Positions 10,458 to 61,700 of a DNA stretch of 64,000 bases are shown piece after piece (position 1 is the first letter of the stretch; each line of letters opens with the position of its first letter). The notes beneath the pieces were generated by a model. That model saw only the letters and a program-made list of their open reading frames with translations. It made no database searches and was not told the origin of the DNA. Both the position numbers and the translations under genes were made by a program. Origin of the DNA: Bolinopsis microptera (Eukaryota > Ctenophora > Tentaculata > Lobata > Bolinopsidae); the NCBI RefSeq assembly GCF_026151205.1, contig NC_087073.1:9376411-9440410 (forward strand). Direction: 5' to 3'.

Positions 10458-24777
<14,320 letters not shown>

Positions 24778-29600: not shown

Positions 29601-32600
29601 TATGTTAACAGTAATAAACATGAACATCTTTTGAGAACATTTTAAATCCTGATTGTGAAGTTCAAAACTACGTGTCTCTTGCGATCAAAGTAGCAGCGAA
29701 ATATCAGAATACATCGCTGTCATCACAAACATAAAGCATTAGATTAATTTCTCCTAAGTTCAGATACGGTCCAGAATAATTCCTTGTTACCTAAAATAAG
29801 ACAATGAGTTTTTTTAATTAAATACTTAGTTAATCCAAATACTTGTTTTAAGTGGACATGGAACCAACTTGTTATATTGTAATGTTGAGTTACAAGGTGT
29901 CAGTAATATTCAATGCATTGACCAAATTCTGTTAATTAAGATTAATCCTGTATCTCTGAATGTAGGTTTATGAGTTGTGCGGTTCACAGAGCTTATTGTA
30001 CGTGATTACTGCAGTTTAATATTATTATGACTTCATGATTGTGGATGCTTACAAGATTGTGGCTGCAAAACTGTGACTTATGTTACAAACAGCTGTAATG
30101 ACAATGTGTCGTAATTTAATCGCTAAGGGGGGCTAAGTTCCCAGGATAGTTCTAGAAACGATTTAATTAGGGATCACGTGATAATTTTTCAAAACTCCCA
30201 GAAGTACAGATTCGCTGAACAAGAATCTCATATATCAAGACCAAATCAGTCAGGAAGAATTAATTTAGATGAAAAAATAAGAATCAGAACAAAATAATAA
30301 AATTAAATTGCAAAAGAACTGATCGACATTATATCATTATTGGGTAGAACGTTTAAAGAATAAATTACGGTAGCCACAATATACTAAACAGAAACTGTAC
30401 AACGTCGCGGTATGCATTTATTTCAAGTAGCTAACTAACTTCAATGTCTAAGAGGCTAGCCGGCTAGGGTGGTTCTTGTCTTATACTCCGCATGCAATTC
30501 TGTCAGTTCGACTGTTGGGCTAAAGGAAGCACTTCCAACTCCAAGTCGAGTCCTTGAGTGGTAATTTGCATTCGAGGCGGTGTAGCTCGTTCAGGGGTTA
30601 CTTGTGTTCTTTGAGTAGATATTATCTGCATGAGTTTGGAAACATACAGCTTTAAGAACTTTCTAAAACTCCTCACTGTAATTGAATATACAAAGAAGTT
30701 AGCCATTATGTTGAGGTACTGCACTAACATAACAGATCGCCACACTACAGTGCCATGATCTGCTCCTAGGAGCCAAGTTATATTTGCAACACCATACGGC
30801 AGAGTGGAAAGTAACAAGACCCCCACAGTTAGCAGCACTGTTATCACCCCCTCCCACCGTAATGTTCGTCCGTGCTGGGAGCTAGCCTTTTTGGCGACAA
30901 CCAGAATACAAATCGATGTGGCCGTGAGGGCTATGTAGGAGAGAGCGTAAACGGCAGGGAATGCTATCAATAAATACCATTTATACCATGATGGGAGATT
31001 TGGTGAAGTGTCAGCATAGGCACAAAAATAGCCAAGGTAACTAAAGTAAACATCATTTCTGAGATAGATTATCCTAACAATAACCACTGGAGAGTAAACA
31101 ACCACTGTCAAGAGCCAGACTGAAGTAAAGATTTTATGTCCGAACCGTGAGGACCAAACTCTGGATTTCAGGGGGTTTACCATAATTATCAGCTTTAGAG
31201 TTGTCAGGGTGCATGTTTGGAACACGGTCACATGTGATAATACCCAGCTCATATTATTTGAAACTTCACAAAGTAGTTCTCCTACCACCCAGCGGTCTGT
31301 GATGGATGCCAAAGTCATTGGGAATACTTTGAAGGCATTTTGTAGAAGGTCGCAGATAGCCATGTGCTGCATCGCTGCTATGATTACCTTCTGAAGTTTG
31401 ATGGCATTGTATCTTATAGTCGCTACTAGAATGATGACATCCCCTATCAGGGACGCAATAAGAGTAGTTAAGCTCCATAAGATGAAGATATATCGCTCCC
31501 GGTCATCTGTTATTACGTAAAGTGTCTTGTTGTCTGTTCGCATTTTATACAGAATACATCACTAGAATGATCGTTATAACAGGATTGAAAATGAAGCTTT
31601 TAGTAATTTTTGACAGCCAGTTTTTTTCATAACCAAAAATATAGCAAATGAAAAGGTAATACGAACTGAAAACATAGTAATCACAACAAAAGAGATCCAT
31701 GATATGCTGCACTAGTAACGTGGACAATTTGCACCTGCGGCAACAAAAAGATTTGTCAAAACCAAAAATATAGCAAATGAAAAGGTAATACGAACTGAAA
31801 ACATAGTAATCACAACAAAAAAGATCCATGCCAGTAACGTGGACAATTTGCACCTGCGGCAACATCATTTTAAACTTTTAATGCTTTCATATGATTCAAT
31901 AAGGTCTCTTCGGATCTTAACGAATTACCATTTTAACAAATTTAGTCTCCAATGTAACTCTTTACTAATGGATGTTTTCAAAATTCACGATTTCGTCCTC
32001 AGACGTGTTCTAAAGAACCGAAAGAAGAAAGAAGTGCAGTTTGTAAAGCCGACACTGGTTGAACCCGAGTTCAGAGAGAATGTGATGCTTCCCAGGTTCA
32101 CCACACACAGTGTCAAGATGGCTATAGGTAGGTGTTATTTTCATCATACAATAAGGATTATTCCCTCTATTGACAGTATTTAATATTAACTAACAACATC
32201 GAGGATTTCTAGATCTTTTAGGAAATGGCTTCGTTATAAGTCCACTAAATCTATCAAAAAACACACATTATCTAATGTCAAATTTTTTTATGTGTTTGAG
32301 CTGAGACGTGTGAATGAGGCAATTGCAATCGTTTAAATGGAAGAGGGGTTATCAAGGAATTCTTAGTATATGCTATGGGATGAGTGTACACAAACTATAG
32401 TTGTGTTTCAGTTGAAGTTACCAGTGGTATGGTAGTACTGTAGCCTCAGAAGATGGTGTGCACTGTGCGAGTTGGACTTTCCGTTCCATTTGTTCCGCGG
32501 AATAATATTTTCAGACGAAAGTCGATTATCTTAAGATCTGACTGATAGATGTCTGTGCAAGTTTGGGCGAGTTTCTATTTGCCAAATTTAAGATATCACT

Positions 32601-38398: not shown

Positions 38399-41300
38399 TC
38401 AAATTCCCTCTTGTATTTGCCGGTACTGGCTGTGAGGGTTGTCTCTGGAAGTCTCTACGCTCATCAGCCGAGCTGCGATGTCGGGTTCTGATTTGTAGCG
38501 TGGTGGTGGTGTTCCGGGTACATCACTCCGGAATGAGTGATCTATTTCCGTGTAAAGTGGGGGCTGGAGGGGGTCCTGAGTGTTGGCCTTCCTCCGCTGA
38601 CGGTACACCACCACAAACAGGATTACCGAGGTGATGGAGATGCACGCTGACACTGTCGTTGCTATAATAACGATCGTTGTGACTCCTGATTTTGTTTGCT
38701 CTAATTCTGACATGTCTGAAATGTATCGTGTGTCATACTTCTGGAAAGTGTTAAATCCAAGGTGCTAGAAAATTACAAAGTTCTTATATCACGGACGTTT
38801 TATACAAAGAAGCGCACTTGGCTAACTGAGAAGACAAGGAAATATTCCAAAAATAGCTGCTCTAGCGACGAGCAGTGCCAAGTGGTGGGAGATAAGGTGT
38901 TATCTGTACGTACTGAATCCCCATTCACCACTAGAAGCTTTACGTGTTATCCCGACAAATTTCATTACCACACATTAATCAACAAAGACGTAAAGAATGT
39001 GGCAAAATTCTGGAGGGATGGAAGAAGAGGAGCAAAGATAAGGTCAAGACTCTTTTTCAATGTATTCCGGGATAAACTTTCATTATGCAGTTACAGTATG
39101 TGTCTGGGTGACCTAGTTACAAGTGGTTCCAAATTGTGTGCCTCACAAATAGGTGACCTCAGTGACAGGGTTTGAGAGAGCGTAGGGCCCCTAAACCAGG
39201 ACATATACGCCCTGTTTACCTCATATTAACGACATTCACAGCTTCCAGTCTATGTTATCTTTGTTCAGGTTACATGATCGGATACATCATGGAGCCAAAT
39301 ATCATTTCAGGGCGAAAAAATGTCCTAAATTCTAAAAATGTGGGGCAGTTTAATTGTTTATCCGGGTTTACGAGTTAGATGCATGCACTAATCTCAGCGT
39401 GGCTTGAACAATGAATGGTCACAAATCAATTAATTCCATTGCGCTATAATTTTTGTTTTAGACCAAACCTTGACACATTTTTATCACCACGATCTCCCAG
39501 TCGCGCAGAGTGCATAATCCAAATTCCAAAATATATGTTTTATAAGATTGACGAGACTGGTGTTGTCTAATATGTACTGTAACTCATAAACTTACGAATA
39601 TGTCTAGATAATGGTTGTCTAACCTAAGCACATAGACCCGTTACAAATCGCACAGGAGGTTTCGTCCAGCTGATCTTGACAATCGTTAAATCCGTCGCAG
39701 ACAAAGGAACAACTGACACAGCCTCCACTGAGGCACTTCACTTGTTCGTGCTCACAATGGTAGTCTGGGTGGAGGAAATAGGGGGTTAATCGCTTCATTA
39801 TTGTGGAAAATTAATTAATAAAGTGATTTATCAAATGGTCAATAATGTGAGATTTTATATCGATATTTATCAGCAGGACAATATCAGCACTGATAATACC
39901 ACTTCTTCTTAAAAAGGAATAATTCCAACGGAAAACTTTTAGGGACCACATTCTAGAAGCTAAGTAAAAACCCATATAAATGCGTGTGCTGCTTCAAAAA
40001 TTATTTTGATATCATATGTTTTCGAATGATGACCAATAAAATAACACCCAAAATATCCCGGTTTCCACACTTATAGCAGTTTAGCAAAGCCATATGGAAT
40101 GTCCCTATAAGTTTTGCAGACAGGTGTTTTTGGATAATTTTCACTAGTGAAGGGGCGCGGCCATTAATTAGTTTTAACTTGTTATTGAGGTCCTATTAGA
40201 AATATGTACCGTTTATAATTATTACGACACGTGCTTATAATAGTAAATGTAATATAAGAGAGAACAGTTTAAAAGGTTGAACTGGGCATTTGCCAGGGGT
40301 CTAATAACAACGATAATTTTTATACTCCAACAATTTCTGTTAAAAAAGTGGGCTTGACGTCGGTTTCCTTGTAATAAACACTGGAAGCTTCATTCAGGGG
40401 GCCCCAAATATAGATCATGAACGTGATATAACCATAAAATGGCAGCAACAAACTTCGGAAGTCTATAACCTGTTAAAAAAGGTGTGTTGTACTGTGTACA
40501 CCATCTTCAGTATAATTTCTGGGGCTGTCAAGTCACTGTGATTGCAGACCAAATCAGTTTGAATGTTTGATACACTCAAGGAATGACCAACAACTGCTTT
40601 ATATCAACACCTGCGTGCTAGACAGTAGACAGCGAGAATGCTAATCCTGTTCCAGTTAATTTGACCAAGGTCTACCCTAGCAACCTCCAGAGCTTGAGTA
40701 TAATGAGACGAAATGAAACTCTCTAGAAGGACCTGGTCAACAACCCGTACCCAGTAATATATCTGGCGGGTCTGATTGGTTTTAGGCTGAATTTTTTGTA
40801 GTTGGTGGAATTGAAAAGTTCCAACTGTGACAACAGGAACACATAAAAATGTTTCTATTTCGAAACATATTTATTCTAGTGCTTGCACACGTCACGCCCA
40901 TCTTGTTGTTATGCAAGTGGAGTTAATTTTATTTATATTTTTAACACGGGTTTCTCTTCAATGCTCATTCCCATAATGAGTGGATAATTGTTTTGATCCA
41001 TTTTAGGCCACTGATGGAACATTAACTTCCACATTTCTTAATCCAATCAAAACCCAATGACTGCTCAAACAAGGTGATTGATTTCATCAGAGGATCGTGA
41101 AAACAACACGGCTATTATACTCATCCGCCGCTGAAGATAAGAGATTCACAGTAATTGAAAAGTAATGTTAGACTCTTCAAACGTATTGTAAGAACGGCTT
41201 CCCTCATTACATGACGGTTTAAAAGATAACGTGAGGTGGAAGTTACCATAAAGCTACATACCCACCGGGTAATACGTAGTATTTGAAGGAGATATATTCG

Positions 41301-44300
41301 TACCGTGGTAAAGCAAATCAATAATGTGTACTGTCTGACATCTTTTAGACAGTTACATGTGAACTTTGCCCTTGAATTTTTTTCTCACGGTCGTCGGAGG
41401 ACTTTATATGTTGTCTTAGAGACACACACACTGTACAGGTCAAAAGGGCCGGGCCGCATTTTGGACCATCCCGTATAACACGATTAGTATAGCTAGGCCC
41501 CAGCTAGATACCATCGAATACCACTGGGGCTACCTCCAAACAATTTAGGGTTTAGTGGAGATAAACGTGCGAGTCTCAGGGTTTTTAAAGTGTAACCTAA
41601 TTCCTAAAATACTGATAAGGTCCTGACAATTTGGCCGAAAATTGTGAAAGGTTAATAATATATATCATATATATAATATATATATGGTGTGTGTAGGGAA
41701 ATTATTAGTGGTGAGCACTTGACGCGCTGTAGAACAGTGTACTCCCTCCTTGAATAGTACATATCGTGCATATTGTCTGTGAATATTGTATTAATACCCA
41801 AATCATGTGGGGCGAGTGACCAGCGTCTATGGGGTCTTATCTTTTCAAGCTGAAGATGTCACCGAGGAATTATTGAGGCATTTTTAGATTGAATTTCAGG
41901 GGTACACATTTGGGGATCTGATAAAAGTGTAAATCTGATTTCATTTTGCGGTGCTTGGCACAACGGGACTACGGGAGGAATAAAAGGATGCGTTATGACA
42001 CAATCCACCAAGAAATAACGTACCACAGTTAGCCTCATCTGATCCGTCTTGGCAGTCTAACACCGTATCACAGACCCAGGAGTCCTTGATACATCGACCA
42101 TCTGATTCACACTTAGAGGTGCAGTTATCTGGAAATAGTTCTAATCACAAATGATGGACAGCTTTTTTGTAAGCAATCTTGTGCGATCTACGTCTAATTA
42201 CTATCATTGAATTCTACCGAAAAATTCTTATAAAAATAAAAACAGCTTGCTCGATTTCTAAAAACTCGCCGAATAATGGACTGTTTTTTTAATTTTTTAT
42301 TTCTTTCCTAGAAAAACTATTGCGAGTAATTACTGTAATCGAATTCTAAGGAAAAGTTTTTTACAAAATTGATATATCAATTAGCAGCAATCTTTTACAG
42401 CTTGCCCTCTTTTTAAAAACTTGCCAAATAATGGACAGATTTTTGTTAGAAAACATGGTACGGAGTGACTACTATATTCTAAAGAACAAATATTGCCGTC
42501 AGAATCAATGTATCACAGCTTGCTAGCTTTCTACAAACTCGCCAGATTTGCCGTAAAATAAAATCGAATAAAGGAAAATCGACCAACCACTAAATCTTTC
42601 GCGTAGATCTGTTTACCAGACTTTCCCAAAATAGGATACATATAAAGGACAGGTTCACTTGAAAATTCTTACCGTAGCAATTCATCTCATCAGAATTATC
42701 AGGACAGTCCTGTACTCCGTTACAGATCTGAGTGTAGTCGATACAGCCTCCATCCGAACCACAGATCCAACCAGATGGACATATGTTTCCTGCTTCTGAA
42801 TCTAATAAAGGAGATAAGGGTTACATAATGGCTTGTTACGAATCGTTAAATGATAACCGAATGATATTTGATATGCAAAAAAAAATGATAATTTATATTT
42901 CGTTATATTCTACATAAATGCAGAATTGCCGAAAATAGGGCTCGATTATTCGAAAATATTTTCCAATGACTTTCACAAATCTTCACCTCCACACATGAAT
43001 TTAGATTCGTCACTCCAGTCACCACAGTCGTTATTACCGTCACATTTTATGTTGGGATCCACACATCTCCCATTATTACACTCGAACTGATCCTCGCACA
43101 GTGTAACTTCTGAAACAGCAGTGAAGTGATTAGAAACTCAATATAAATTATATATTTTGACGTCAAATGCAGTGCCGAAAGGTCGGAGGAAACGCCGTTT
43201 TCAGAGGAGAACTATTGATATTTGTATTTTGCACTCATGACTTTTACAAAACACTGCTAATTAGGAACTTAGCATGATTCAATCAAACTCTTCAATAAGA
43301 ATTCGCTGTAAATAGTTTTATAAGCACAACAGATTCTTTCGTCATAACTTCGATACTTTCCGAGAAAATACTTATCATGAAGAAAACAGTGAAAGGTAAG
43401 GCCGTACGTTAAAAAGCGAGATGTCCTAGCAGTGCGTTAAAGCCTTTCATTCTAACTAACTGTACGACCAAGAATCCCGTCCATCCGCAGACTGAAACTC
43501 TAATTTCTGGACTCCGCTGAAGCGCAGACAGTCGGAGACGGCATAGTTTCGATATTTGAGGAGTTAAACTGGTTGTCTATCGTGCCGCTATTTGTTAAAC
43601 TGGACATTCGTATAAATAAAAATTTGCTCGCGACTGAATTTTGTTAATTTATCGTACGAAATGCAGCTCTGTACACGAGTCGAGTAAGGAAACCAAACTT
43701 TTATCTTCTAATAATAAAGTATTGAAAGAGAGCATACTTAGAATTAGACTTTGTTAAAACATTTAACGACACTTGCACCTTCAAGGTTTACATATTGCTA
43801 TTTATTGTTTATAATTGGAAACCTATCTACCGTTAAACTCAACTTAAGATAACTTCAGGTCACGGTAAAGAAGTATATGTGTCATACGCCCTGCTAAAAC
43901 TGAGAATTTTAAAGAAAATTAACAATGCGCACCGGATGTTGGCCCCGATTCAAAGAATCTTGAAATCTTTTGCTGCATGAATCCCTCATGAGTTTGTTGT
44001 TCACAATCCATTGTTCATAATTAATATTACATAATACATATATCGCTTAAGTTCGTTTAAGATAACTTCATGACACGGTCAAGAAATAGGTGTGTCCATT
44101 ATACGCCCTGCTAAATTTCAGACTCTTTAAGAAAACTAACAGTGCGGACCGGATATTGGCCCCGATTCAAAGAATCTTGAAATCTTTTACTGCACGATTC
44201 CCTTAATTTAGGGGTGAAAATAATAAAGATAACCGGATTAAGAACAGATAAAAACACAGGTAAAACTCCCATAACAAAACCCATGACCATAGTCGAAGTG

Positions 44301-47300
44301 TTCAAGTTCTCAAGGTCTAAGATCACTTCGCAGAGTGCAAACAGATACCCAGTCTGGATGACACCTCCAGCGTTTGTAAGGATGATCTTGATACTGCTCT
44401 TCTTATCCGCCTGAACGTGAGCCTTTATTTTAGGATTAGACCCTCTCTTGTAAGACTTGTGTTGGTGGTTGCTCATCAGGTGTTTGACTGTCAGAGCTGA
44501 AGCTACGATGGAGACAAGCTGACCCGGGAATGTGGGCCACGTGACCAGGAGGTAGGAAAATATTATCAATCTTCTCTTAGTATTGGACTGATCCACGTCA
44601 CCCAAACCAAAGGCTTCCTCGTCAAACCAGGGAGTGAAGGTGTGGTAGGAGAAGAAGAAATAATCAGGTCTGATCGTCATAGAGCACACTAGGACTATGA
44701 AGACTCCGAAACAGTAGAGCACAATGGACCAACCGACAGTGTTCTGACTGATAGTCCTAAAGGGTTGACGTAGCTGCCGGAAACGGCAGATGGACATGGT
44801 CGCAGCAACAAATCCAGGGGTTTGAGAGAGGAGAAAATCAACACAGCCATAGATTTTTAGAATCATTTCACGTGCTTCTCTACAACTTTTCTCCTCCTTT
44901 TCCATCTCGCAGAGCGGCTCTCCTCCTTTCAGTACCTGGATCGATATAAATGTTCCCACAATCAGTCCTGTAGCGAAATCAATACTCGACAGCACCATGA
45001 ACAGGGATCTCGGCACACTCCTGTGTTTCTTGTAGTTGTAAATGAAGACGAGCGTGTTCAAGAAGATTGATGCTATTGTCAGGAGGATAGAAAAGACTCC
45101 GATATAAATATCCGGGCTAGAGAAACCTCCGCGGCTATAAAGTGCCATGTTGATAAGAGAAGATGTAGCGAGATCCCCACACACACAACGAAACTATGAT
45201 CGACACGAGCGTTATACTACAAGATTAGCAGAGTATATTACTACTAGATAATGCTGGAGAAGAGTTATAAGTGCATGCAGTACGTTAAATATTCACCAAT
45301 GTCGTCTTACTACCACTAACATCATTCGTCAAATATAATTAATAAGCTTTCCATAATGGTGTGTGTGGTCAGTCATCAGGAGGAAAGACGTGATCATCAG
45401 TTAACTACAGACTTAATGGGCCACACTCCTTTTCAGGTGGACATTTGCCCGGCTAGATTAAAGTGGTTGAGGCTGCGTAATCACGGATCATTGCACGCAC
45501 GTAGGAAGATGAGATTGTACAGGTGTAAAGATGTGATTATATATCCTTATAAAACAGGTGCCCGGTGCTCTGTTATCATCATCAACGTGATACAAGTTGT
45601 GACCTGTGTCTCCATCAGCTTGCGTGAGGTCATATCAAGTCTGTGATATCTCTTGTCACTCTTACACGTGAGCAAAACTTCTTGGCAACTTCAGGGAAAC
45701 CAGACACTCAGAACTCTAACTGAGATTAACATCCAGCGGTGATTCTTGTTCATCAATCCAAGATAAGAATCAGATTCCTAATATCACCGTATCTTATTTC
45801 AGGGGAGCCGTAACCCTGTTGCAGGTTCGAATCATTGACACCTTCATCAGGTCTAGGCTGTGTGTAGCCTCCCGGAGAGGCATTCTGGGGAGTGGGGAAG
45901 CCTTGCAGGACTAATACACCATTTAAATTATCATACTGTGTAATTGGGGTAATTTTCAGGGAAGTGTAGATCTTGTTTCACGTGACTTCAAGACGTGGAA
46001 CAGTGGGAGAAGCGGGTAGTTACAGAAATAGAAAAGTATTTCAAGAACGTAGAGGGCTGGGCAAGTATAAGGCACTGAGGTCGGAACCGTCTTTTATGAG
46101 CTTTTGTCGGGTTGGCACTTGTCACACTGCCTAAAAAATGTGTAGAAATGACATAAATACCAAAATACCTTCCCGCGTAGTACACTTGTGTACAGTTCTA
46201 TGGAATTTTTGAAGGGATGCCGATGAAAATACTACTCTAATGAAAGTTTTAAAAATAAAAGAATATTGTTCCTTGACAAGAATCAACAAAATAATCATCA
46301 ATGATATTTTACCCCATATCTTTGCTGACTACCAATATTTTGAGGGTATGATTGAAGTAGCAGTAAGCACTGAAATGATTAGAAAACAGAAATATCTTAA
46401 GTGCTGGTGGACATCATTGACGTGAAGTTACGTAATCCTTCAGCTTAACGACTGATTATTCGACTATTCGGCGGAAGGTTTAATGAGAAATTATATAAAT
46501 TCCCTTTTTAATCATGATTTTAAAGGGAACAGAGTCTTAAATTAAATACTGGTGAACTTTCAGAGGACCAATGATATAGTTAACGGACGATCTATTTCCA
46601 TTATAAAAGTTAAACAGTAACCGTATGCGATTCAGTGATTGCCAGATTCGAGATTTCCTTTGTCACGGAAATACTGCCGTGAAATGCCTGGTTTCTTTAC
46701 AGTACCCAGCAGCAGCTACAATTTTTGTCACTTATAAATGAGATATGAGATAGGCTGTGGACGCAAAGTGCGATGTTGTAAATATACAAAAAATAGTATA
46801 GGCTACATTTTGCGATGGAAAATGATAAATACCGCAGGGTCAAAGTTGCAAAGTTATAAATACCAAAATTGAAATCTGTCAAGATGTGTTGATCGTGGCG
46901 AAGTATTCGAATTCCATCAAGATTATTTGGTGAAAACCATTGAGCACCCCAGTTTTGGTGGTAAGAGACCAGCTAGCAATCAGGTGTTCTGATTTAAACA
47001 CCACCATAGTATTATTATGCCTGCTTATTAAAAATGTTACAACTTTCTTGAAGTGCAGAGTGTAACTGTTTCCAAGTAACAGTGGCAGTTCAATTTCAGA
47101 GTTACAATTTAAAATCCTCTTGTAACTCTGAAATTGAACTGCCACTGTTACTTCCGACTGTGAAGTTGATGGAAACAGTTCCACTCTGCACTTCAAGAAA
47201 TGTGCACACTTGACCTGTGAGTAAGGAGTGTTATGTTTAAGGTCACCTGAAGTACTCATGAGATTCAACCACCGTCTCCTACAAGTAAATACTCAAGTAC

Positions 47301-50300
47301 ACACTTGGTGTACATGTCACGTGTATAAGTACATGTCACGTGTATACTTACAGAGTCTCTAGTTTTAGAAGTACACTCTAAGTACACACGTGCAACACTT
47401 TTAAAACACTGCTCAGAGAGGGAGAGAGAGTTTTTCCTGATGTGGCTAAAATTACTGAAGAGCTTGCTGATATTAATTACTCACATGTCGTATTACATAC
47501 ACTATACAGGGCCATAATGTCTACTAGTAATGTCAAACTCATCAGAGAGTCTCATTCCTATTTTCGTAACTGATCACTTAATTTCCCTAGTTCTGCATTA
47601 AGAATATATAATAAGTTACTGTTAATGAAAGTTTTGTACAGAGCTAAGATGCACAATTTGTGATTATACAATTATAGTAACCACATCAGTTAAAAAACCG
47701 GTCCGTGAACCTATATCATACAGGAAGCCAGCTCACAACCAACCAATCAGAACAGAGAACAGTGCTCACGTGGTTTAAACAGGAGGTTTCTAAGAGGGAA
47801 TGTATTTGTGTAAAGCGCTTGGCAGGATACCACAGTTGACCATTATAGAGAGAAATCGTCTACTGTTATGAAACATCAAATGGTATCATCTGATTGGCCT
47901 TCAGTTTTGATTAAAGCATTTTATTAAATCTGCAGTCATCTTATATCAAATCATACCTCTCAATTTTACCGACAAGTCACTTCTAGAGAATTGTCCAACA
48001 TTTAAGCGATATTTACGATGGTCCCATTATCTTTCTCGCTATTTTAAGCTCCAGTTTAACTGCCAACTAAAATTATATCATATATTGTACATAAATTACG
48101 ATAAACCCATTCCATAACACAGAGAAACTTCCACGTCTGTTTAACTCCAAACGGTAAGCTGATTAAATCGCAAGGCATTATTGCTCAATAATCGGTTTGT
48201 TATCGACGCTACATACTTTGATTTTCCGACTTTAAAGCTGACTTAAGAAACCAGGGAATTACTTTTACCTTCCTAACATTAAATTGTTAATTTTATTTAT
48301 ATATTACTTTATTTTTTTTTCCTTCAAAACATTCCAGTAAATTGTAAATTAAATTAAAAATTTTGGGAGCATGTAAGGATTTAGATTTGATATCGATCGT
48401 ATATACTAAAAATGCTCTAGCACAATTGTAGCTGCAGTTTTACAGAACTCTAAATGCTTAATGAACACACTTGCACTTTGCAGGTACCACCCGTATTCAC
48501 ACTCTGACCTAAGTTTAGTCTTTTTTCCGATACGAGATTGGGGACGGGTTCTATAGACAAACAAACAAACAAACAAATCGCATCAATCACTCTGAACTGA
48601 TATAAGTTGCTTCGGAATGTGATAGCTATTAAATCTTTCTTGAGATTACATAACGAAAATAAAAATGGACTACAAAAGTCAAAATAACCATTTCTTACCA
48701 TTCCCAGGACTGTCGCAGTCACGCTCATCGCTAAAGTCCTCGCAGTCGTCATAGCCGTCACACACCCACAGCTCTGACACACACCTCCCGTTGTCACACG
48801 TAAACACGTCGTCACGTGTCTCACAATCCATCTGGGAAATGAAGGGTTTTAAACTGTTTTGTTGGCTTCATTGTTCAAATACCTAAATATTTCCCCCACT
48901 GTGGTGTGGGCCAGGGTTTCTCAATGTAGTTTACTTTTCCAGGAACTCAACAGGCTGCATCTAAAATTGAACTGTTTCAAAAAAATATAACCTTTTGCGA
49001 ATTCATTGTCCTAAGTTTTAACTTTAACCATTGTCCATTTGTTGTGCTATTAAATTGGAAGGGTGGAGTTAATAGTACAATACAAGAGCATTTCCTGTAC
49101 TTAAAAGGGAGAGACAATGTGTAACTCTTGCCAAGAGCACCTCGTGCTACATTCCTACAAGACTACACAAAATGTTACAATATGAAATTCTAGTAGCAAC
49201 ATTAATTTTTAAGTGTCTCCGTCATCAATGCTTTGGCATAGATCATACTTGGTGAATTTGTTAAGAACGCGGCCTTGATAAAAACTAAAGATACAAAGTC
49301 TGACAAATAAATGATATACTGAAAACTGAAAACTGAAAAGTGAAGACGGTATGATATTTTGAAATTGTGATTTGTGACACACATCATACCTCGGTAGTGG
49401 CGGTGGCACAATCTTCCTCGTCCAATCTGTCATGACAATCGTAGTTTCCATCACATACCATAGATTCTTGAAGACACATGTAACCATCCCATCCGTCACA
49501 CAGAAGCTCACCTGTCAGTATTGGAGTTTAAATCGATATAAACAATAAACATCTAGAGATTGAAATAAGTTTAAAAATTACTATAATTATATTCTGATAT
49601 ACTTTATTCCAGCAGCGAGTAACAAATTTAAAATCGTCCACCTGCCCCTGTTAAATGTACGGCTTGGAAATCGGAGAAATAGAATTTTCCATAGACTGAC
49701 CTTATCACGAGTTATAATCAAATTACAAAGAAAGTTCGAGAAACTTTAATCTTGCCAGTTATCTAATTTTATTATACTGTTACATCACACATGTTTTGGT
49801 CCCGCATTTATTGTCCACGCACGGAAATTGGAAAGTAACAGTGCCAACTATCGTACTTCATGGACGAACTGGACATCGGTTAATATCTACTGATGTAGTT
49901 CGAAGAGCTGCTCAAAGTACTACATGATTTCAACTTCATAAAAAACATTATGGTTCACATTACCTGGCGCACAGAACGCTGGTGTAGGGGTGGTACATCC
50001 CACAAAGGTTCGGTCTGGTAGATCCTCAATCCTGTACCCGCGGTAGTTCTGCAATTATACACAGTTAGTACTACTAAAAAGAGTTTTGAGTAACACTACT
50101 TGATCTTAATGTCCTAACCTTATAACTTATAAGAATTTCTCGACTCCAATTAATCAGCTTTGCCACTACTACGTGATTCTGTTGAACCATCACTAACACA
50201 TTGTCAATATATTTAAATTGTGTCTCTCACAGTGCTCGATCATTTGATTGGAATTTTCGAAAACTGGAAGAATACTACTCACAAACCGGATTTACACTCC

Positions 50301-52553
50301 ACTGATGTCTGATTTTGATGCAACCACTTTTTACCATAAAAATAATAGCAAGCTTCAATGTTTGCATTAGTAAAGCAAAATCAACTATATCTGCGTTTCT
50401 TGGAAATTTGTCGCGGTTTGTGTATATTTTATTAAAACAAATTTCCTAGACCACAGAATCGGTAGGTGTAAGTAACTTCACACAAAATCACGTGACTTAA
50501 AACAATAGCAATATTTGCAGTTGAAGCAAACAAAACAAATATGTTCAAGATATTAGTGAATACGTAGTGTTTGCGACAAAAAATTGTCTTTAATGCTGCA
50601 ACGAATATTATAATCCCTTCGACCAATTAGATATATACAATTATATTGTCATCAGATCCCAGAGGAACAACAATTTCAACTGTTTAAAATGGCGAAATAT
50701 GCTAAAGACGTTACAAAAATGTATTATTGGATGATAATACTTACACTTGGATTAAAGCATGTGATATCAATCTGAGCATTTTCCATTTGGAAGGAGCGTG
50801 AAGGTTCGTGCCACGAGTTCATCGAACAATCGCAGTCAACGGTATTTGCTATCCTGATAAGTTGCTTAAGTAAGAATTTATATTAATGATATAAGAATTG
50901 ACATCAATCTAAGTTTAACCCACTGAAAATATCAGAAGATAGGTGGTATATTCGAATTATCTTAGTCGACTTATTTTTCCGCCATTATATTACGAAATAT
51001 TATAAAGATACTACTCACAGTGATTTTAAAGCGTAGTTATTCTGAATAAGTTGGTAGGAGATGTGATTTAGCTGGGGGTTGTCGCTTACGTCTCTGAGTA
51101 AAGAATTAAATATGGTTAACCTTAATCTGCTTACGTCTCTGAGTAAAGAATTAAATATGGTTAACCTTAATCTGCGTCGTTTTGGGTGGTTATACCTACC
51201 TCAGTTTCAGTTCCAAGTCAACATTTCCGACAAGCCGTTAGCCGTCGAGCAAGGATTATTCATTGAGCTCACTAAATTAGGTAGTTAACCAACAATACAG
51301 TTCAACAATTTACGATTGTATTGTACATATTTTAGTACGTTATTTTGACACGTATGGATAAATTGTCAGGTGGTAACTCTGGTAAGGTCGTAAAACCGGA
51401 GAATCAGTCGAGTATTTAACTATTTTAGATTTGATGTGCCGAACATACTGAAACAGTACTAAAATGTATTCCGACATTTCCCATGCTTATTAAGATTAAC
51501 TGTATTTACTGTGTCTGGACCAATTTCCTGGCCGGTCAATTAACCGCGATATCAAGAAAAACAACTCCCACTACTTTCCCAACTATGTATACAACAAATA
51601 ATGTAGAACAAAAGTAAAGTCAAACTTTTTAACTGTGAAAGGACTTACAAGTGTGTTAAATGGTTGTTGTTATCAAATAAAGATTCTGATAACTCGTAAA
51701 GCAGATTGTTTCTTATGTTCCTGAAATATTATTCAAATGATCAACATAAAAATGTTAAGGTTTTTCAGTTATAAGAGTTTCCCCACAAACATTGCATCAC
51801 TAAAACAATCAGAAGACCTAATAAGTACATTAAAATTAAGAATCTTACAATTCATTACTTCAATTTATTAAATAATTAGGTCTCTTTAATTTGAACTTAC
51901 ACAACTTTTAATCTGACATTGTTTCTGAAGGTGTCTCGATGTATTGCTGTTATAATGTTGCTTTCTATGTAACTGCGAATAAAGGGCTTTTTAAAAAGTC
52001 ATATTTATGAGTTTAAAAAGTAAACGGAGTACCAAGCGATGGTTATCCTCAAGCCAGTAGCGCCACAAAAGAAACCAAATTGGCAACTTGGCTTTCAATT
52101 TACGATTGCATAGAGAGTTCTCATATGCTTTTATATTTGTCCATCCCCAGCATAATTAAAGAATTCCCCTTGCAATGAGTATCTTTATTCTTCAAATCAA
52201 GATCTAAATCACTTACAGCTCCTCGAGATCATAGAGCTCAGCAAAGCTGGTTTCTGACAGTATCTGCACTCTGTTATCACTTAGATTTCTGTAGAAACAG
52301 TATTTTAATTTCCAATAACTCTGAGCAAAATAAAAAATGATCAGAAATTATTCTCCTTGACATTACTGAATACTGAGTATCAGAACGATTAAATAAACAC
52401 TCACAATATACGTGTAGCTGAAGGTAGCCCAGGTGGAATAACTTCCAATAGTGACTCGACACATGTGACAACGTTATTTTGACATGTGCAGAGAGTAGGG
52501 CAGCTGGCCAGTAGGTGGAAAAGAGATAGAAGGAGGAGGATGTAAGTAATCAT
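38399..52553 (-). CDS. Single-pass membrane protein: LRR domain, six LDLa modules, TM helix, PPxY tail (14 exons)
   Basis: Minus strand exons: 52553..52405, 52288..52217, 51972..51901, 51720..51649, 51093..51019, 50853..50745, 50048..49964, 49511..49390, 48831..48699, 43109..42987, 42801..42673, 42128..42024, 39764..39624, 38715..38399. The phases close exactly, giving 567 residues. A signal peptide ([17 protein letters not shown]) precedes an LRR N-cap ([14 protein letters not shown]). Then come about five LRRs, mostly on 72-base phase-2 exons, and a C-cap starting [12 protein letters not shown]. Six LDLa modules follow with calcium-site patterns such as [29 protein letters not shown] and [16 protein letters not shown]; later ones sit on phase 1-1 exons. 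The last exon encodes one TM helix ([20 protein letters not shown]), a stop-transfer RQRRK and a tail of about 60 residues with two PPxY motifs (PPLY, PPRY). It is not a relaxin-type receptor: there is no 7TM domain, and the LDLa modules follow the LRRs. A cell-surface receptor or adhesion role is inferred. Confidence 0.88.
39765..42023. other. Intron 12 of the LRR-LDLa gene
   Basis: No nested gene seen. An AT microsatellite (TATATATCATATATATAATA) lies near 41660. Open frames are short and unsupported. Confidence 0.5.
43838..44209 (-). repeat. Tandem duplication of the GPCR 3' end
   Basis: The block around 44060-44209, which includes the last coding codons and 3' flank of the GPCR at 44111, is repeated at 43838-43993. 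Shared phrases include CATACGCCCTGCTAAA versus TATACGCCCTGCTAAA and the exact TTGGCCCCGATTCAAAGAAT. The outer copy has only the C-terminal tail and is a non-functional remnant. It is about 10-15 percent diverged, so it is an older duplication. Confidence 0.85.
44111..45184 (-). CDS. Divergent rhodopsin-like GPCR, intronless, nested in intron 9 of the LRR-LDLa gene
   Basis: A complete 357-residue frame with seven hydrophobic segments near 27-50, 62-84, 112-136, 148-168, 206-235, 275-298 and 305-328. TM1 has [11 protein letters not shown]2 keeps the acidic residue ([10 protein letters not shown]), TM3 ends [13 protein letters not shown] in place of DRY, and TM7 reads [17 protein letters not shown], an NPxxF version of NPxxY leading into helix 8. 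An unusual charged insert ([15 protein letters not shown]) lies between TM2 and TM3 with two Cys. It is an orphan class A receptor at the plasma membrane; ligand unknown. It is on the same strand as its host, inside the 5.6 kb intron 9, so it needs its own promoter. A tandem relic of its 3' end lies just downstream. Confidence 0.87.
   Translation of the reverse strand: MCGDLATSSLINMALYSRGGFSSPDIYIGVFSILLTIASIFLNTLVFIYNYKKHRSVPRSLFMVLSSIDFATGLIVGTFISIQVLKGGEPLCEMEKEEKSCREAREMILKIYGCVDFLLSQTPGFVAATMSICRFRQLRQPFRTISQNTVGWSIVLYCFGVFIVLVCSMTIRPDYFFFSYHTFTPWFDEEAFGLGDVDQSNTKRRLIIFSYLLVTWPTFPGQLVSIVASALTVKHLMSNHQHKSYKRGSNPKIKAHVQADKKSSIKIILTNAGGVIQTGYLFALCEVILDLENLNTSTMVMGFVMGVLPVFLSVLNPVIFIIFTPKLRESCSKRFQDSLNRGQYPVRTVSFLKESEI
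45185..48394. other. Intron 9 of the LRR-LDLa gene upstream of the nested GPCR
   Basis: No gene. It contains a long near-perfect hairpin at 47044-47200 and short repeats of GTACATGTCACGTGTATA type near 47305-47350. The GPCR promoter should lie just right of 45184; the first 200 bases are unremarkable. Confidence 0.55.
47044..47200. repeat. Long inverted repeat (157 bp hairpin)
   Basis: The inner arms are 34 bases, starting AAGTAACAGTGGCAGTTCAA at 47074 and ending CACTGTTACTT at 47153. They are exactly complementary around a 12-base loop. Outer arms CTTGAAGTGCAGAGTG and CACTCTGCACTTCAAG also pair exactly, and between them AACTGTTTCC pairs with GGAAACAGTT, with an extra 20-base stretch on the right side. 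No flanking duplication was recognised. Confidence 0.9.
48395..48575 (+). repeat. Dispersed retroposon-like family A, longest copy
   Basis: This is the reverse complement of 8030-8195 over nearly the whole length (GTATATACTAAAAATGCTCT, GGTACCACCCGTATTCACAC, CGATACGAGATTGGGGACGG). It ends in TCTATAGACAAACAAACAAA and further CAAA units, a retroposon-type tail. It lies in intron 9 just before exon 9. No coding capacity. Confidence 0.75.
51084..51173. repeat. 45-bp exact tandem duplication spanning a splice acceptor
   Basis: GCTTACGTCTCTGAGTAAAG and the following 25 bases occur twice in direct succession (51084-51128 and 51129-51173) without a difference. On the minus strand each copy contains TTCTTTACTCAG|AGACGTAAG, the acceptor and first bases of exon 5 of the LRR-LDLa gene. 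Confidence 0.95.
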
Positions 52554-54732: not shown

Positions 54733-57240
54733 GTTGCTCTAACCAGAGCCCTTCTGCGCCTGCAGTAGCAAGTCACGTAGTAAGCGTAGGCCCATTGTTA
54801 GATGAAGCAGGGTCGTACATTACTGAGCGGCGCTCAGCCTGTCTTTCAACCAAACATTATAGCCTGGGGTCCCCAGGTTAGTACAAGTAGTCGTACAGTA
54901 GTCCATTTACAACAACATGGTATTGCACAAGCGTGAATTTTAAAAATACATTTTATTTCTATCCAACCAAGAATTCAGGAGGCAACCAAGAATTCAGGAG
55001 GCAAAGGTGGGTCTGCACTCTCCGATCCTGTATCACCCTGGATTCTTTTCGACTTATCTTTATAAAAGGTATATACCTTCTAGTCAATCTCTTGCTACTC
55101 CAAGTCCCATAGGATATCTGATCTTAAGTTCGTGCTAGTTATATATATGAAATATATTTGTGTCTGCTTTAATTGATACTAAATAAAATTGTTGTTTTCT
55201 TGAAATTGTTGTTTTCTTATTATTCAGAACTTTTCGTGCATCAACACCAAAAGGAATCTATCTCTGCCCACAAATCCGTTAAAGACATGGGGGGTCATAT
55301 CAATATCTGATTACCAATGGTCTGCTCATATCAATCAGACGGCTGATGGCACTAAAATGGTTTGGTACATAGATTATTGCAAATCAAAATAAAGCACATC
55401 TGTCCTGCTGCCCATATAGAAGCTTCTTAAGGAGTTAAAATGCATTTTGCTTTATATATTAATTCTGTTCCAGAATACTCAAATTGCCCACGAATCTGCT
55501 ATCCTTGGTTTCTGCATGCAGGATATTATATATATATTGTGAAAAGCTAATTCTTTGAGAAAGAAAATTTAATTATTTAATTATTTATCACCAATTCACC
55601 AATATGATTAAATTCAATTTTAAGATTTTATACAGTATATTTCTGAAAAAGGTGCTTATAACTGTTTCTCAAACATTAAAGCTATAATGTTTATTACCTC
55701 ATACCTAGCACGCCAATTCCTAATGCACAGCGCTAGAGATTCAGCAGAATGACAGGCTGAGCACCGCTCAGTAAAGTTTGATAATCTATTACTCGTTTTT
55801 CTCACGAGTTAAGCTCGAAAAGAGTGCCACGTATACAGTATATGGTATAGAGATTAAGGATAGGCGCGTCTGGTATTGCTCTAACCAGAGCCCTCTCACT
55901 TGCAGTAGCGCGCGACCGCCGAAGTCGGTTGTGAAACAAGCGCGTCACGCAGTACGCGTAGGCACATGGCTATGTGAACGTCTGGTACTATACGTGGTAA
56001 AACTTTGCTCATTATCAATGGACTGACCAGACGAGCGCAACTCTGTAGTATTTGTCTCGAGAATATTTCAAGAAGAAAGCGGCGCTCGCGTTGTAGCGCG
56101 ATGCGTTACTGTGCCGAGCCGCGCACTCAATGAGGCTTCTCGCTAGATCGGCGAGATGCGCTACTGTGCCTCGCCGAGCTGCGATGAATTGACATCGTCA
56201 ATTAACGCTCGCGCTACTTCGAAGAAATTTAGACGAGTATCATCAGTCAAGTAAGGTAAAGCTCTGCTAATTAATCTTGTCATACGTTGTATGACCCGCC
56301 GCGCACGAAGTGCGCGGCTCCCCCTGTATCGTCACCTAGTGAAACGACCGTGGGTGTCACAACGTGATACAAAATTAATTCACACCGGGTTTGTACATTC
56401 AATAATAACAATAAACATGGACAATGCAGCTCTGAGCTTGCTTTGCTCTATCCGGATCCCTTGCGCTTGCATTGTGTATTGATGATTGACATACGTTGCC
56501 GCCGTGGCGCACGCCCGCCTCCTGGCTTGTGAACCAAGCGCGCACGCAGTGGCGCGAAAGCACATGGTTAGTTGAAGAGCACCTAACCATTTCTTCGAAG
56601 TAGCGTCGAGCGCTACTTCGAAGAAATTTAGACGAGTAACATCCTTCAACGAGTAACATCCTTCAACTTTTTACCTAACATTTGAATTTTTGTAGTGACA
56701 GGATGGGTCCCCACCAACCATTCTTCCTTGTGTCATGTGTACTTGCTTCAAGTTCATCATCTCCTTTTTCTAACAATCATGGTGTCTTCATTGACTAATC
56801 GCATTAGTGAACCGACAGTGGGGGTCACGACGTGATACAACACAGACTGGTCAAAATCTAATCACGCCGGCCCTTGAAAAGAGCGCCGCGCATGCCTTGC
56901 TCTATCCAGAGCCCTTGCGCTTGCAGTAGCGCGCGCCCGCCTCACGCGCCTGACTTGTGAAACAAGCGCGCCCGCAGTGGCGCGAAAGCACATGGTTAGG
57001 TGAACGCATACCTATTACCCCCAAGTCTTGTAGCGCGATGCAACACTGAACACTTGACGGATGTTACTCGTATAAATTTCTTCGAAGTAGCATGCGCCGC
57101 TTTCTTCTCTGATGGCAAGTGCTACGAAGTAGCGCGCGCCGGGCCAGATCATTAACAATGGTCAATGCACCACTTGGCCACGTCGAGCTGCGGTGCGAAG
57201 GATTGACATCGTCAATCAACCCAACTCAGGACTCAGTTTC
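54733..57240. repeat. Cluster of a GC-rich dispersed repeat
   Basis: At least four copies in one orientation are seen at 54733-54806, 55876-55980, 56442-56577 and 56897-57006. They share GCTCTA[AT]CCAGAGCCC, CTTGCAGTAGCGCGCG, TTGTGAAACAAGCGCG, GCAGTGGCGCGAAAGCACAT and GGTTAGGTGAACG. Between them lies a second motif, CGCTACTTCGAAGAAATTTA with GACGAGTA, present near 56213, 56610 and inverted near 57065; near 56595 two copies form a palindrome. The GC-rich open frames in this stretch are composition artefacts. A fragment of the same family lies at 9177-9233. Confidence 0.8.
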
Positions 57241-58771
57241 AAGTTTCCTCCGCGGTAGCTGGTAGGTATACTATTACTGATAATATCTGCTCAGATAAAA
57301 GAGTGAAGATGAATCGCATGATATGAATACAGTGTATTTCATGAGGTGAACTAGCTGCATGTTATAACGAACGCCGTGTCTATTAGATGTACAATTGCAA
57401 ATTTTTCGTTCCCACTGAACCGGGAACAGAGAAGCTTCTTGCATCACCACCCAACTTACATAATACGCGTATTAGTCAGGAGATTTGTTACTCATAGTCA
57501 TGGTCATTTGCCATTGACGATATCAAGTTTTGCTGCTCGTGACGCCGTGACGGCTAGAAGCATGATTTCATACTCGGCGTGACCGTTATACAACTCTTTT
57601 TAAGATCTCGCGAAGAAACATACTACATTAGTGAGTGTTGTGGAGTTTTTAATTTTAAATAGTTATCGTTGTGACTCAAGGCAATGTCAGGATACGTAAT
57701 ATGTGAACGACCTCTTATAAAGTTTCAACAATTGTAAACAATGATTTACAGTAGGCCAAGTAAAGCATTCATGTACATTACCAAGCGTTTATTTAAAACA
57801 GTATCGAAAATAACAAAAGCTTTAAAAGGGGGCAATTTATAACTACAAAGTAAACTGTAATTCTAACGTAATGTGGAAATAATTTAATTTTCCGAATAAA
57901 ACCTAATTTCATAAATGCGATTCGTTTTCATCCTCATAATCAATGTCCAAATATTATTGACAAAATTTCTTAAAAGTGCAGTCACCCTCAGGTCTCTGAA
58001 TCCCAAGCAAAGCGTCTAATGTTCAAACCTCAGTCATACGTTAATCTATGGACAAATTCACTTAAGTTGAACATAAAAATCATAAAATCAAACTAAAGGA
58101 AGGCTCGATGACGTTTGAAGAAAATAAAGTAAAAATTCTTGGTGCAATTTTAGAATTGCCAAACCATTTAAATTCACATTATATCATAATGCAATGCGAA
58201 TTAATTTTACATTCCCGCAGGGGTCTCAAAACAAGGTTTATATAAAAATAAAGCACTAAATATTTCAAATGGAATCTATCTTATGTGTAACTAAAAGAAT
58301 TATTCGTCCACGAGACTACGCTTGAATTTCAAAGTCAGAAACCTAGCCAATCTAAAACCAGTGGACCATTTTGGTTTTCGTGCCAATCCGGTTGTTGCAA
58401 GCACAAGTACCGTACGTGTCAGTGTCGCGTTTTTCATGGCATATGAAAAAGATCTAGATGTTGATAAGCAACTCTGATGAGCGAAAAACTGCGATTATTT
58501 AATCAAAAATCATTAACAATTTAATGGAACAGAAAACTCATCAAAAGCTCAAAGAACAGAGACATTTTCTAAAATAACCCATAAAAACAGACTATCATAA
58601 TTCATTATAGATATAGTTTATATCGTAACATACAAAATATTCTTTTCATCAAATCATTCAGAGTCGGAAGGGTCCCTTGTTCGTCAAAAGTACAAATCAC
58701 TCTTCATCCTATGATATCAGGAGTGCGGCGAGTATATTATATAACACCTAAGTGCAGTATTAGAATAAACC
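57241..58771. other. 3' flank of talin, no gene
   Basis: AT-rich sequence without supported coding frames or clear repeats. The talin 3' untranslated region must occupy the right part of it. Confidence 0.55.
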
Positions 58772-61700
58772 CTACGTGTCCTGGTTGTCCTGCAGTTTCT
58801 TGAACGAGTATGTCTGAGCGTGTCGGATTTTGGCTAGCTGTTTTCGGGCCTGTTCCAACTCCCTTTCCCTCCGCAAGATCTCCTCCTGCGCCTGGAGCTC
58901 AGCAGCCATGGCGTACACTGCACTACTCTGGACACTCACCTCAACCTGGGAACACGGCATATTTGTTTAATATAAATAATCTTAAATCGTAAGTTAAAAC
59001 AATTTGTAGTACATAAGTCATAATATACACTTGCACTGATAGAGGTGCGACCTAGAAGAGTATAAGAGCGAAATACGCTCAGCGTACATGTCTATGATAA
59101 ATAAAACACCGACCTCTTGTTCGTCGAACACAGACGCTGATTGAGCTGCCTTGACCAGGCAATCAGCTGCCCTCTTGACCTTGTTACCAGCCGTCTGGAG
59201 ACGCTGTGCGTTTTCTGAATGCTGATCCGCTTTAACCATGCAGGCCATCAGCAGCTGGGCTGTGGAGTTAGCTACTCCCTTTGCAGATGCGATAAGCTTC
59301 TCTTCAGAGGCATTTCCCTGGTAGGAGTAACAATTAGGGTTTAACTAGAATTAAATTACCCAGCTCCTAATTACTGATGGTATTTTTATTTTCATCAAAC
59401 AAAATGCAAGAAATAAAATAGTATAAAGGCATACCTGCACGGCAGCATTAGCGGCTTCACACAATGTGCTGGTGGCAGCTGCCACCATCCTGGCAGCACC
59501 AACCAGACCCTCTGACCAGATGCTCTCTTTGTCCAGATTTGTTGTCGTCACTCGGCCCTGTCTTGCCAATTCTCGCTGAGTAGCAGATGCAACTCTAACC
59601 AAGGCACTGGTGGCACCAGCAATTGCCTTAGCTGCTTCCAAAATCTGTTCTTCGAAGTTGAGAGACTCGTCCACTTTCTTTCCTGTTTTCTTTCCTGAAA
59701 ATGGTCATGTGTTTAAAAAGTGAATACCCATTTCATACTTCTAAAAATTGTACATAATTTTGAGATATAAAGTCCAACTTTCAAACTACATATATATGAC
59801 TCAAATCTCGCATCTTCAACTTACTGGGCTGAAGCATTGACAGTTTCTTGGCAGCAGCCTCGATACTGGCAGCAGCATTGAGCAGTTCGTTCTCAGCAAT
59901 AACATTAGGATCATCAGGGTTAACCCAGTCAGCTCCAGTCTTCATTTCCTGGAGTCACGTCGATCATGAGCAATATTCAAAAAATCTCTAGAATAAAAAG
60001 TGCTCCACTTTAAGTACTCAAAAATCGTTTATTACAGTCACCAGGGAGCAGGAGGCGAGCTTACCTCAGCACAACCGATAGGATTTCCGGTGCTTTCAGC
60101 GATTTGCTTGGAATACTCGATGAGTTGTTTGTTCTCAAGTTGAACAAAGGCAATATTTCAAAATAATTTCTGGAATCAAAAACCCTTCACTCGATATTTA
60201 AAAACGGTGTAATACAGTAATCAGGGAGGGGAGCTAACCTCAGCACAACCGATGAGATTCTTGACGCTTTCAGCGATTTTCTTAGAATACTCGATAAGTT
60301 GGCTGTTCTCAGGTTGTCCAGCAGAAAGTGATTCACACATGTACTCCAACATATCCCGATAGGCCATACTCGTACTGCGACCAGCTTGTAACACCTGATT
60401 AGAAGAGGTTTTACTACACTTCGGTTATAATTATACAGTTTCTTCTATTGTTGTGAATTACACTTTCAATGCAATGGAGCATCAAATCGGAAAAGAGAAC
60501 GGCAAGGCCCCACAAATGGTATGTGTTTTACCTTGAGCTTGAGTGCCTCGCTCTCCGCGTTATTAGAGGCTCCCTTGCACGTGTTCAACATGTCAGTGAT
60601 AGCCTTGCGACCCATGTTACCCGCAGCTGCAATGTCGTCTTGTTTGGCTGTGTTACCTGCTGCCACTGCTTTTGTAGTAGCAATTGTGATCTCCTTAGCG
60701 GCTCTGATGAGGTCCTAGAGAGAGTGAGAGTTAGAGGACGAATTGTTTTTATTTTGTATGAGAATAAGAAATAATATCAGATAAATGTTATAGTGATTTG
60801 AAGTAGAACGCTGGAAGAAGTAATTGTATTGACTAAATCTGAAGGTAAAAACAGCTGTTGATTAGTTTCTACAGTAACATTTGTAGAGATGTACCTTGGT
60901 TCCACAAAGGTCAAATTAAATGCTTCGCCAAGTTTAGAATGATAACTAAACTGAACGGAGGTGCAATACTGTAACGCTGTATTATTTTTCATAACTCTGA
61001 AGTTCACTTGAATTGAAAATGAAATGCTGTGGTGCTATTGCCCATGCTGTCTTCTGTGAAGAAATGACTGTAAGTATAACATAATACTGCACTTGGAGAA
61101 AAAGTGCTGAACAAAATGTAAGTGCTTAAATTGGAGCAGAGAGTGGATACGATTCTCCTAAAAATAAGATAAAATTAAACCCACTGTTCCGTCCCTAACA
61201 AAATCCTTCCCCAAACTTAGAGCAGAAGAGACAAACAGAGTAATTTGAAAGGTAAGAGAAGTTTGAATCAGAAAAATCATGAATGGGAACTGGGATGATT
61301 AATTGCGGTTCCATTCTTAAAATTGCTGTTATTGCTGTTAAGACCAAAGCGGAGAAGACGGTTTTCCGAGCGAGAAAACTTAAAAGATCTGTTTCATCAT
61401 CCCATGGAGGAAATATCCACATTAACAAGTGCAGTGCCCAGCAAATCGGAGACATAGAATCACACTCGGCAGGTGACATAAGAATCACACTCTTCAGGGC
61501 AGGGATCACTCGTTCTTTAATTCTACCTGGGCATTTGCCATCCTGGCCTTTTCTTTGGTTGCTTCGGCACTTGGCCTGGACATAATGGAGCTCTGCAGGC
61601 GCGGTCTGACCTGAACTTCCGCGTCAGAGTCAAAACCATCGGAGTCAGAATTGCCTGACTAAAGGTTGTGCCAGGGTTAAAAAGGGGGTTAGTTGTTTGT

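Follow-up and report, generated by a model that had tools for sequence, protein, structure and literature searches.

A predicted single-pass receptor with leucine-rich repeats, six LDLa modules and a twin-PPxY tail in the ctenophore Bolinopsis microptera

A 14-exon gene on the minus strand

The window analysed here is a stretch of 64,000 nucleotides from Bolinopsis microptera, covering C2:9376411-9440410 of an assembly that totals 264.65 Mb and has 232 contigs, and all genome searches were conducted in this same assembly. In keeping with a ctenophore source, three chains of the Mnemiopsis gene ML032222a rank first and the Pleurobrachia chain 4zdm fourth among the solved structures matched by one ionotropic glutamate receptor of this genome (best 60 of 232), ahead of the kainate and AMPA receptor chains listed; for another such receptor no ctenophore chain was among the best 60 of 246. 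On the minus strand of 52553-38399, an independent rebuild from the sequence yielded 14 exons which join in phase and encode a protein of 567 residues, starting at 52553 and closing with a TGA stop codon that ends at 38399 (Table 1). The initial annotation had proposed a model of identical exon count and length, likewise closing in phase. All 13 introns are of the GT-AG type and in phase. The LRR exons are phase 2 and the LDLa and transmembrane (TM) exons phase 1, while phase 0 occurs at two sites, namely at the entry of exon 7 and at the exon 8/9 junction. When codon preferences were derived from four other ORFs in the window, the modelled frame obtained the best score in 12 of the 14 exons, the exceptions being exons 3 and 7.

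An acceptor-like TTTCCTAG is found immediately 5′ of exon 1. Further, exon 5 has two identical acceptors 45 nt apart, and use of the upstream one would result in an exon of 120 nt, which stays open and gains 15 in-frame residues. A perfect 45-base tandem duplication, present in two copies, extends across the exon-5 acceptor (window 51084-51175).

Table 1. Features of the receptor gene, the gene nested in its ninth intron, and candidate WW-HECT clusters. Positions refer to the window, except for the WW-HECT clusters, which are given by contig and position in the assembly.
Feature	Position	Strand	Description
Exon 1	52405..52553	-	signal peptide and LRR N-cap; hydrophobic residues 1-24
Exon 2	52217..52288	-	LRR 1, 72 nt, phase 2-2
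Exon 3	51901..51972	-	LRR 2, 72 nt, phase 2-2; frame not top by codon usage
Exon 4	51649..51720	-	LRR 3, 72 nt, phase 2-2
Exon 5	51019..51093	-	LRR 4, 75 nt, phase 2-2
Exon 6	50745..50853	-	half LRR and start of LRR C-cap (CDC...ITC)
Exon 7	49964..50048	-	final C-cap cysteine (FVGC) and first LDLa1 cysteine (C209); frame not top by codon usage
Exon 8	49390..49511	-	remainder of LDLa1
Exon 9	48699..48831	-	LDLa2; strong donor at end, phase 1
Intron 9	43110..48698	-	5589 nt; separates LRR-LDLa(2) from LDLa(4)-TM half, no module spanning both
Intronless GPCR gene	44111..45148	-	in intron 9, same strand as receptor; Pfam 7tm_1 E=0.0012 (below cut-off), paralogues
Exon 10	42987..43109	-	LDLa3
Exon 11	42673..42801	-	LDLa4
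Exon 12	42024..42128	-	LDLa5
Exon 13	39624..39764	-	LDLa6 and short juxtamembrane cysteine pair
Exon 14	38399..38715	-	TM helix and cytoplasmic tail: PPLYTEI (residue 514), PPRY (533), YRQI (560), stop TGA
WW-HECT cluster	C1:9.920-9.925M	one strand	four WW rows, four HECT rows
WW-HECT cluster	C2:15.443-15.468M	one strand	five WW rows, three HECT rows (one of the three 11 kb further on)
WW-HECT cluster	C6:3.088-3.108M	one strand	two WW rows (17 kb apart), four HECT rows

Domains of the predicted protein

The translated protein consists of a signal peptide, an LRR N-cap, four to five LRRs, a divergent LRR C-cap, six LDLa modules, one TM helix and a tail of 68 residues, in this order. In the hydropathy analysis, the signal peptide (residues 1-24) and the TM helix (about 472-502) were the only hydrophobic stretches, in agreement with the single TM annotated initially. 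The protein is presumably located at the cell surface. In the 567-residue protein, Pfam recognised Ldl_recept_a in six stretches (E=4.2e-39), bearing out the six LDLa modules of the initial annotation, and LRR_8 in two (E=1.1e-12). The four LRR exons (72, 72, 72 and 75 nt) provide four full repeats, and a half repeat is placed ahead of the C-cap, which makes the earlier count of about five LRRs a fair one. Each of the six LDLa modules contains six cysteines and an acidic C-terminal loop of the form D-x-[SL]-D-E, and extra cysteines are present in LDLa6 and in the juxtamembrane stretch. Among the best 60 of 250 phmmer matches to solved structures, the LDLa part was related to LRP2, VLDLR and LDLR, and the LRR part to LINGO1 (E=3.6e-22), FLRT2, LGR4 and lamprey VLRs. 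No EGF module or YWTD propeller was matched by Pfam in the protein at E≤1.

Both LRR caps had been assigned by the initial annotation, and they are visible as cysteine patterns and through weak phmmer matches, but the Pfam models LRRNT and LRRCT gave no match to the 567-residue protein at E≤1. The N-cap in exon 1 has the pattern Cx3CxCx6C. By phmmer, the four cysteines of the C-cap (CDC, ITC, FVGC) were aligned with their counterparts in Reticulon-4 receptor-like 2 at a weak E-value of 0.019, and Slit was matched weakly over query residues 18-202. Judging from this cysteine pattern and a weak score, a divergent C-cap seems to be present. Across the Bolinopsis genome, LRRCT had no match at E≤1, and the C-terminal cap domain PF01463 is described as undetected in three ctenophores including Bolinopsis (PMC11797021). 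A four-cysteine cap which is recognisable in the LRR-LDLa gene suggests that the reported absence of LRR C-caps in ctenophores may be an effect of model sensitivity.

A GPCR gene nested in intron 9

Within intron 9, an intronless GPCR frame is open over 345 codons. Searched against the genome, it gave 37 non-self rows, one of which is an adjoining fragment. Alignments starting at query residue 1 account for 19 of the 37 rows, and 14 of these 19 are located in frames open over 320-387 codons. All six paralogues that were read (L006-L011) are intronless without an in-frame domain upstream, and all six share the initiator methionine and a matching M-x-x-F-S stretch, which reads M-A-L-Y-S (followed by R-G-G) in the nested gene. 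Since the start is conserved in all six, the nested GPCR is, as judged from its paralogues, a gene of its own and not part of the LRR-LDLa receptor. It belongs to a divergent family of single-exon GPCRs that is barely recognised by Pfam. Just downstream, at window about 43900-44025 on the minus strand, a partial copy of the GPCR C-terminus was found, with 57% identity over residues 303-344 and one stop. Despite this adjoining copy with its stop, we rejected an interpretation of the nested GPCR as pseudogene debris, as its frame is open over 345 codons. Nested genes have been described from another ctenophore, Hormiphora, in which 2357 nested intronic genes were counted in 1654 hosts, many of them parallel to the host (PMC8527503).

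One gene, two genes or a fusion

We consider it probable that exons 1-14 constitute a single gene, from which one mRNA would be spliced. The LRR and LDLa regions are inseparable at their junction, because exon 7 holds both the last cysteine of the C-cap and the first cysteine of LDLa1. Intron 9 is the sole weak joint of the gene model. The initial annotation had named a transcript ending before the LDLa exons, or a separate one starting at them, as a sign that two genes were joined; applied to intron 9, this would mean that one gene, for an LRR-LDLa(2) protein, ends in the intron and that another, for an LDLa(4)-TM-PPxY protein, begins in it. Such a split draws on the length of this intron, by far the longest with 5589 nt vs. 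116-2259 nt for the other 12, and on the other gene contained in it. In addition, the in-phase join is weak evidence for unity, LDLa exons being phase 1 anyway. Reading through exon 9 leads to a stop after six residues and thus to a short secreted form, five AATAAA hexamers are present in the intron, signal-peptide-like starts occur at 47542, and trans-splicing is reported to be common in ctenophores (PMC8527503). On the other hand, the exon-9 donor is strong, as 32 of 127,982 positions score as high when both window strands are counted (leave-one-out matrix, receptor gene included), and exon 10 is preceded in frame by stops and not by a signal peptide; its acceptor is ordinary, with 271 of 127,968 positions scoring as high (leave-one-out matrix, both window strands). 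For comparison, 42 overlapping 5.6-kb slices from both strands of the window, receptor gene included, served as controls. By the criteria of our script no TM-bearing terminal exon exists in intron 9, which is weak evidence, as 62% of the control slices have none either and 38% have one. The two signal-peptide-like first exons share one common ATG, and such starts are not above chance because 31% of the control slices have an exon of this kind. In summary, the sequence signs of a split in intron 9 do not exceed chance in what is a weak test, one gene is the likelier arrangement, and two genes are improbable. Alternative ending in intron 9 of the single gene could produce a secreted LRR-LDLa(2) form. 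A third arrangement, in which the exons for LRR-LDLa(2) are joined to the 7TM ORF of intron 9 to give a relaxin-receptor-type LRR-LDLa-7TM protein, has next to no probability. The ORF does lie in the very next intron on the same strand, LDLa, LRR and 7TM are combined in relaxin-type receptors (PMC4837482), and three AGs in the phase of exon 9 exist (45127, 45097 and 45073). However, one of these three lacks a pyrimidine tract and the other two cut into TM1, whereas the two AGs before TM1 that do have pyrimidine-rich tracts are phase 2, and exon 9 ends in phase 1. The start and initiator methionine conserved in the six intronless paralogues, with no domain upstream in frame, equally argue against fusion, as does the low 7tm_1 score (E=0.0012). 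Based on the conserved start and the splice phases, the fusion was rejected.

Comparison with known receptors and relatives in the genome

LRRs and LDLa modules are combined in one ectodomain in RXFP1/RXFP2 and in the GRL101-type LGRs. In RXFP1, however, LDLa is N-terminal to the LRRs and the chain runs into a GPCR body, whereas in the comb-jelly receptor the N-cap directly follows the signal peptide, all six LDLa modules come after the C-cap, and one TM precedes the stop in place of the C-terminal rhodopsin-type 7TM of the relaxin-type (type C) LGRs. The LRR-then-LDLa order and the single TM, opposite to the relaxin type, had been recognised in the initial annotation. This comparison stands as a contrast of order and TM number but not as a relationship, given that the gene has no 7TM exon and that the 7TM ORF of intron 9 is separate.

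Tandem calcium-type LDLa modules are shared with LDLR, VLDLR and LRP2. Receptors of the LDLR family have a single TM and an endocytic tail, together with a YWTD propeller and EGF modules. LDLa modules and a single TM are also present in the comb-jelly receptor, but no EGF module or propeller was found and an LRR domain stands at the N-terminus. A capped LRR ectodomain is likewise found in LRR receptors of the LINGO/FLRT/LRIG type, which have a single TM and Ig or FN3 domains between LRR and membrane, where the comb-jelly receptor has its LDLa modules. With a cysteine-capped solenoid it belongs to the extracellular capped LRR class (LRR_8 E=1.1e-12; caps assigned by cysteine pattern, C-cap E=0.019). 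LDLRAD3 (LRAD3) is a single-pass protein that is not known to have an LRR. Two PPxY motifs and extracellular LDLa modules are described for it, as in the comb-jelly receptor, but also three LDLa modules and a dileucine motif (PMC11150648), as opposed to six LDLa modules and YxxPhi motifs here. By motif layout, the two-PPxY tail is common to both, whereas outside the cell the comb-jelly receptor has an LRR domain of ~200 residues ahead of its LDLa modules. Polycystin-1 is described with N-terminal LRRs, a C-type lectin and then LDL-A (PMC3677617). It differs by the intervening C-type lectin, its one LDL-A, the PKD and REJ regions and 11 TMs, so that the LRR-then-LDLa order alone is in common.

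According to the initial annotation, no protein of this architecture had been described. Indeed, no described single-pass LRR-LDLa protein was found among the matches listed from open-licence full-text literature, but LRRs ahead of LDLa already exist in polycystin-1. We conclude that the predicted receptor puts known modules together in a new way and does not represent a new kind of machine.

The genome was searched with the whole protein for relatives, giving 81 rows, 11 within the receptor gene and 70 elsewhere. All 70 outside rows fall within query residues 224-463, a range that takes in the LDLa modules and reaches slightly beyond them. No close paralogue was found, as neither the LRR part nor the tail was matched outside the gene in this search, which also missed the gene's own exons 2, 3 and 4. 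Further, 80 LRR_8 rows and 150 LDLa rows (best 150 of 199 and 150 of 1810 candidates scored, respectively) were compared by eye, and no pair within 20 kb was seen; this comparison carries little weight, as scores were given to the best candidates only and short exons escape such searches, as exons 2-4 of the receptor did above.

On this occasion we noticed a very large family of 7TM receptors without introns, in which LDLa modules share the reading frame at least in the members inspected, exemplified by L004 (C9:7212500-7217500) and L005 (C1:13584500-13589000), with about 100 more places. In L004, LDLa and 7tm_1 were found by Pfam in one ORF; L005 was recognised as LDLa-7TM by eye, and many other rows adjoin LDLa places. 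The 7TM part of one member gave at least 106 rows, with some on each of C1-C13 (104 of 539 candidates scored), some genes contributing more than one row. By an eye count, about three quarters of the rows belong to frames 1000-1300 codons long. Among the literature matches listed there was no report of this family.

Cytoplasmic tail and candidate ligase partners

The twin PPxY motifs noted in the initial annotation were recovered in the 68-residue tail as PPLY at residue 514 and PPRY at 533. PPLY overlaps a YxxPhi motif (YTEI), which results in a composite PPxYxxPhi (PPLYTEI), and a second YxxPhi motif, YRQI (560), is close to the C-terminal end. PPxY fused with YxxPhi is known from the epithelial sodium channel. 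In 200,000 composition-preserving shuffles of the tail, at least two PPxY motifs were obtained in 0.12% and at least one in 6%. No Pfam domain matched the tail over the cut-off, and it resembles no known immune signalling motif by eye.

Genome-wide, 25 rows for WW and 53 for HECT were detected, and WW and HECT rows cluster on the same strand at three places (Table 1). Because WW and HECT exons cluster in the same genome, NEDD4-type partners for the receptor tail are plausible, the clusters representing candidate WW-HECT genes.

Proposed function

At close to an even chance, and hence tentatively, we favour a type I single-pass receptor encoded by the 14 exons, which would act in ligand-binding endocytosis or adhesion and recruit a NEDD4-type ligase with its tail. 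Via the six LDLa modules and/or the LRR face, the ectodomain would bind at least one extracellular ligand, either a protein or a lipoprotein. Ligand binding by LDLa modules is calcium-dependent. The YxxPhi motifs could couple the tail to clathrin adaptors so that the ligand is taken in, and the PPxY motifs may recruit a HECT ligase of the NEDD4 type through its WW domains, so that ubiquitination would set the level of the receptor.

The same gene can be understood differently, and the main rival to an endocytic receptor is a ligase adaptor of the LDLRAD3 type, whose tail would chiefly serve as a membrane adaptor or activator of NEDD4-type ligases, with the ectodomain deciding where. LDLRAD4, PMEPA1 and Ndfip are membrane adaptors or activators of such ligases, and LDLRAD3 reportedly is one for ligases of the Itch/Nedd4 type. 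The candidate WW-HECT genes would suit this role, as would two PPxY motifs in a short tail beside one TM and LDLa modules, a layout described for LDLRAD3 (PMC11150648). However, the YxxPhi motifs, one of them overlapping the first PPxY, favour uptake of the receptor itself, and we regard a role chiefly as an adaptor as rather unlikely. Only a slim chance is given to an innate-immune or phagocytic recognition receptor with microbe-binding LRRs. The LRR part is similar to VLR structures; in amphioxus, a single-pass receptor with LRRs and a folate-receptor domain is reported to bind bacteria and to aid phagocytosis (PMC10199209), and canonical TLRs are reported absent in Mnemiopsis (PMC11797021). 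On the other hand, the gene is not expanded in the genome search, unlike many recognition families, and its tail shows no resemblance, by eye, to known immune signalling motifs.

Regarding origin, it is possible, albeit doubtful, that the LRR-LDLa(6)-TM-PPxY architecture is a receptor type born in ctenophores by exon shuffling independent of the relaxin receptors, and that it acts as a ligand-gated recruiter of a NEDD4-type ligase in a lineage that is among the earliest to branch off within animals. In this scenario, phase-2 LRR exons would have been joined to phase-1 LDLa exons via the phase-0 junction. If the transcript is confirmed, early animals had joined LRRs and LDLa modules in at least two different ways, and ctenophores have an LRR-LDLa receptor other than a GPCR. 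The tail, with two PPxY motifs of which one overlaps YxxPhi, would then offer a compact test case for the age of receptor control by NEDD4-type ligases.

Other features of the window

Besides the receptor and its nested gene, several further coding regions were recognised in the window. Talin rod exons occupy 56383-63765 on the minus strand, identified in 63136-63765 by Pfam (TLN1-like_RS and VBS) and elsewhere by eye. Exons of adenosylhomocysteinase lie at 22929-24035 on the same strand, with a Pfam AdoHcyase match in 22929-23264 and 23706-24035 assigned by eye. An intronless open frame at 30506-31558 (minus strand) is 7TM-like by eye, with Pfam silent at E≤0.01, and the minus-strand open frame at 3721-5367, which has a weak RVT_1 match below the Pfam cut-off (E=0.0046), is probably a transposable element. 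On the plus strand, a single open frame at 16322-17692 encodes Ig and von Willebrand type D domains.
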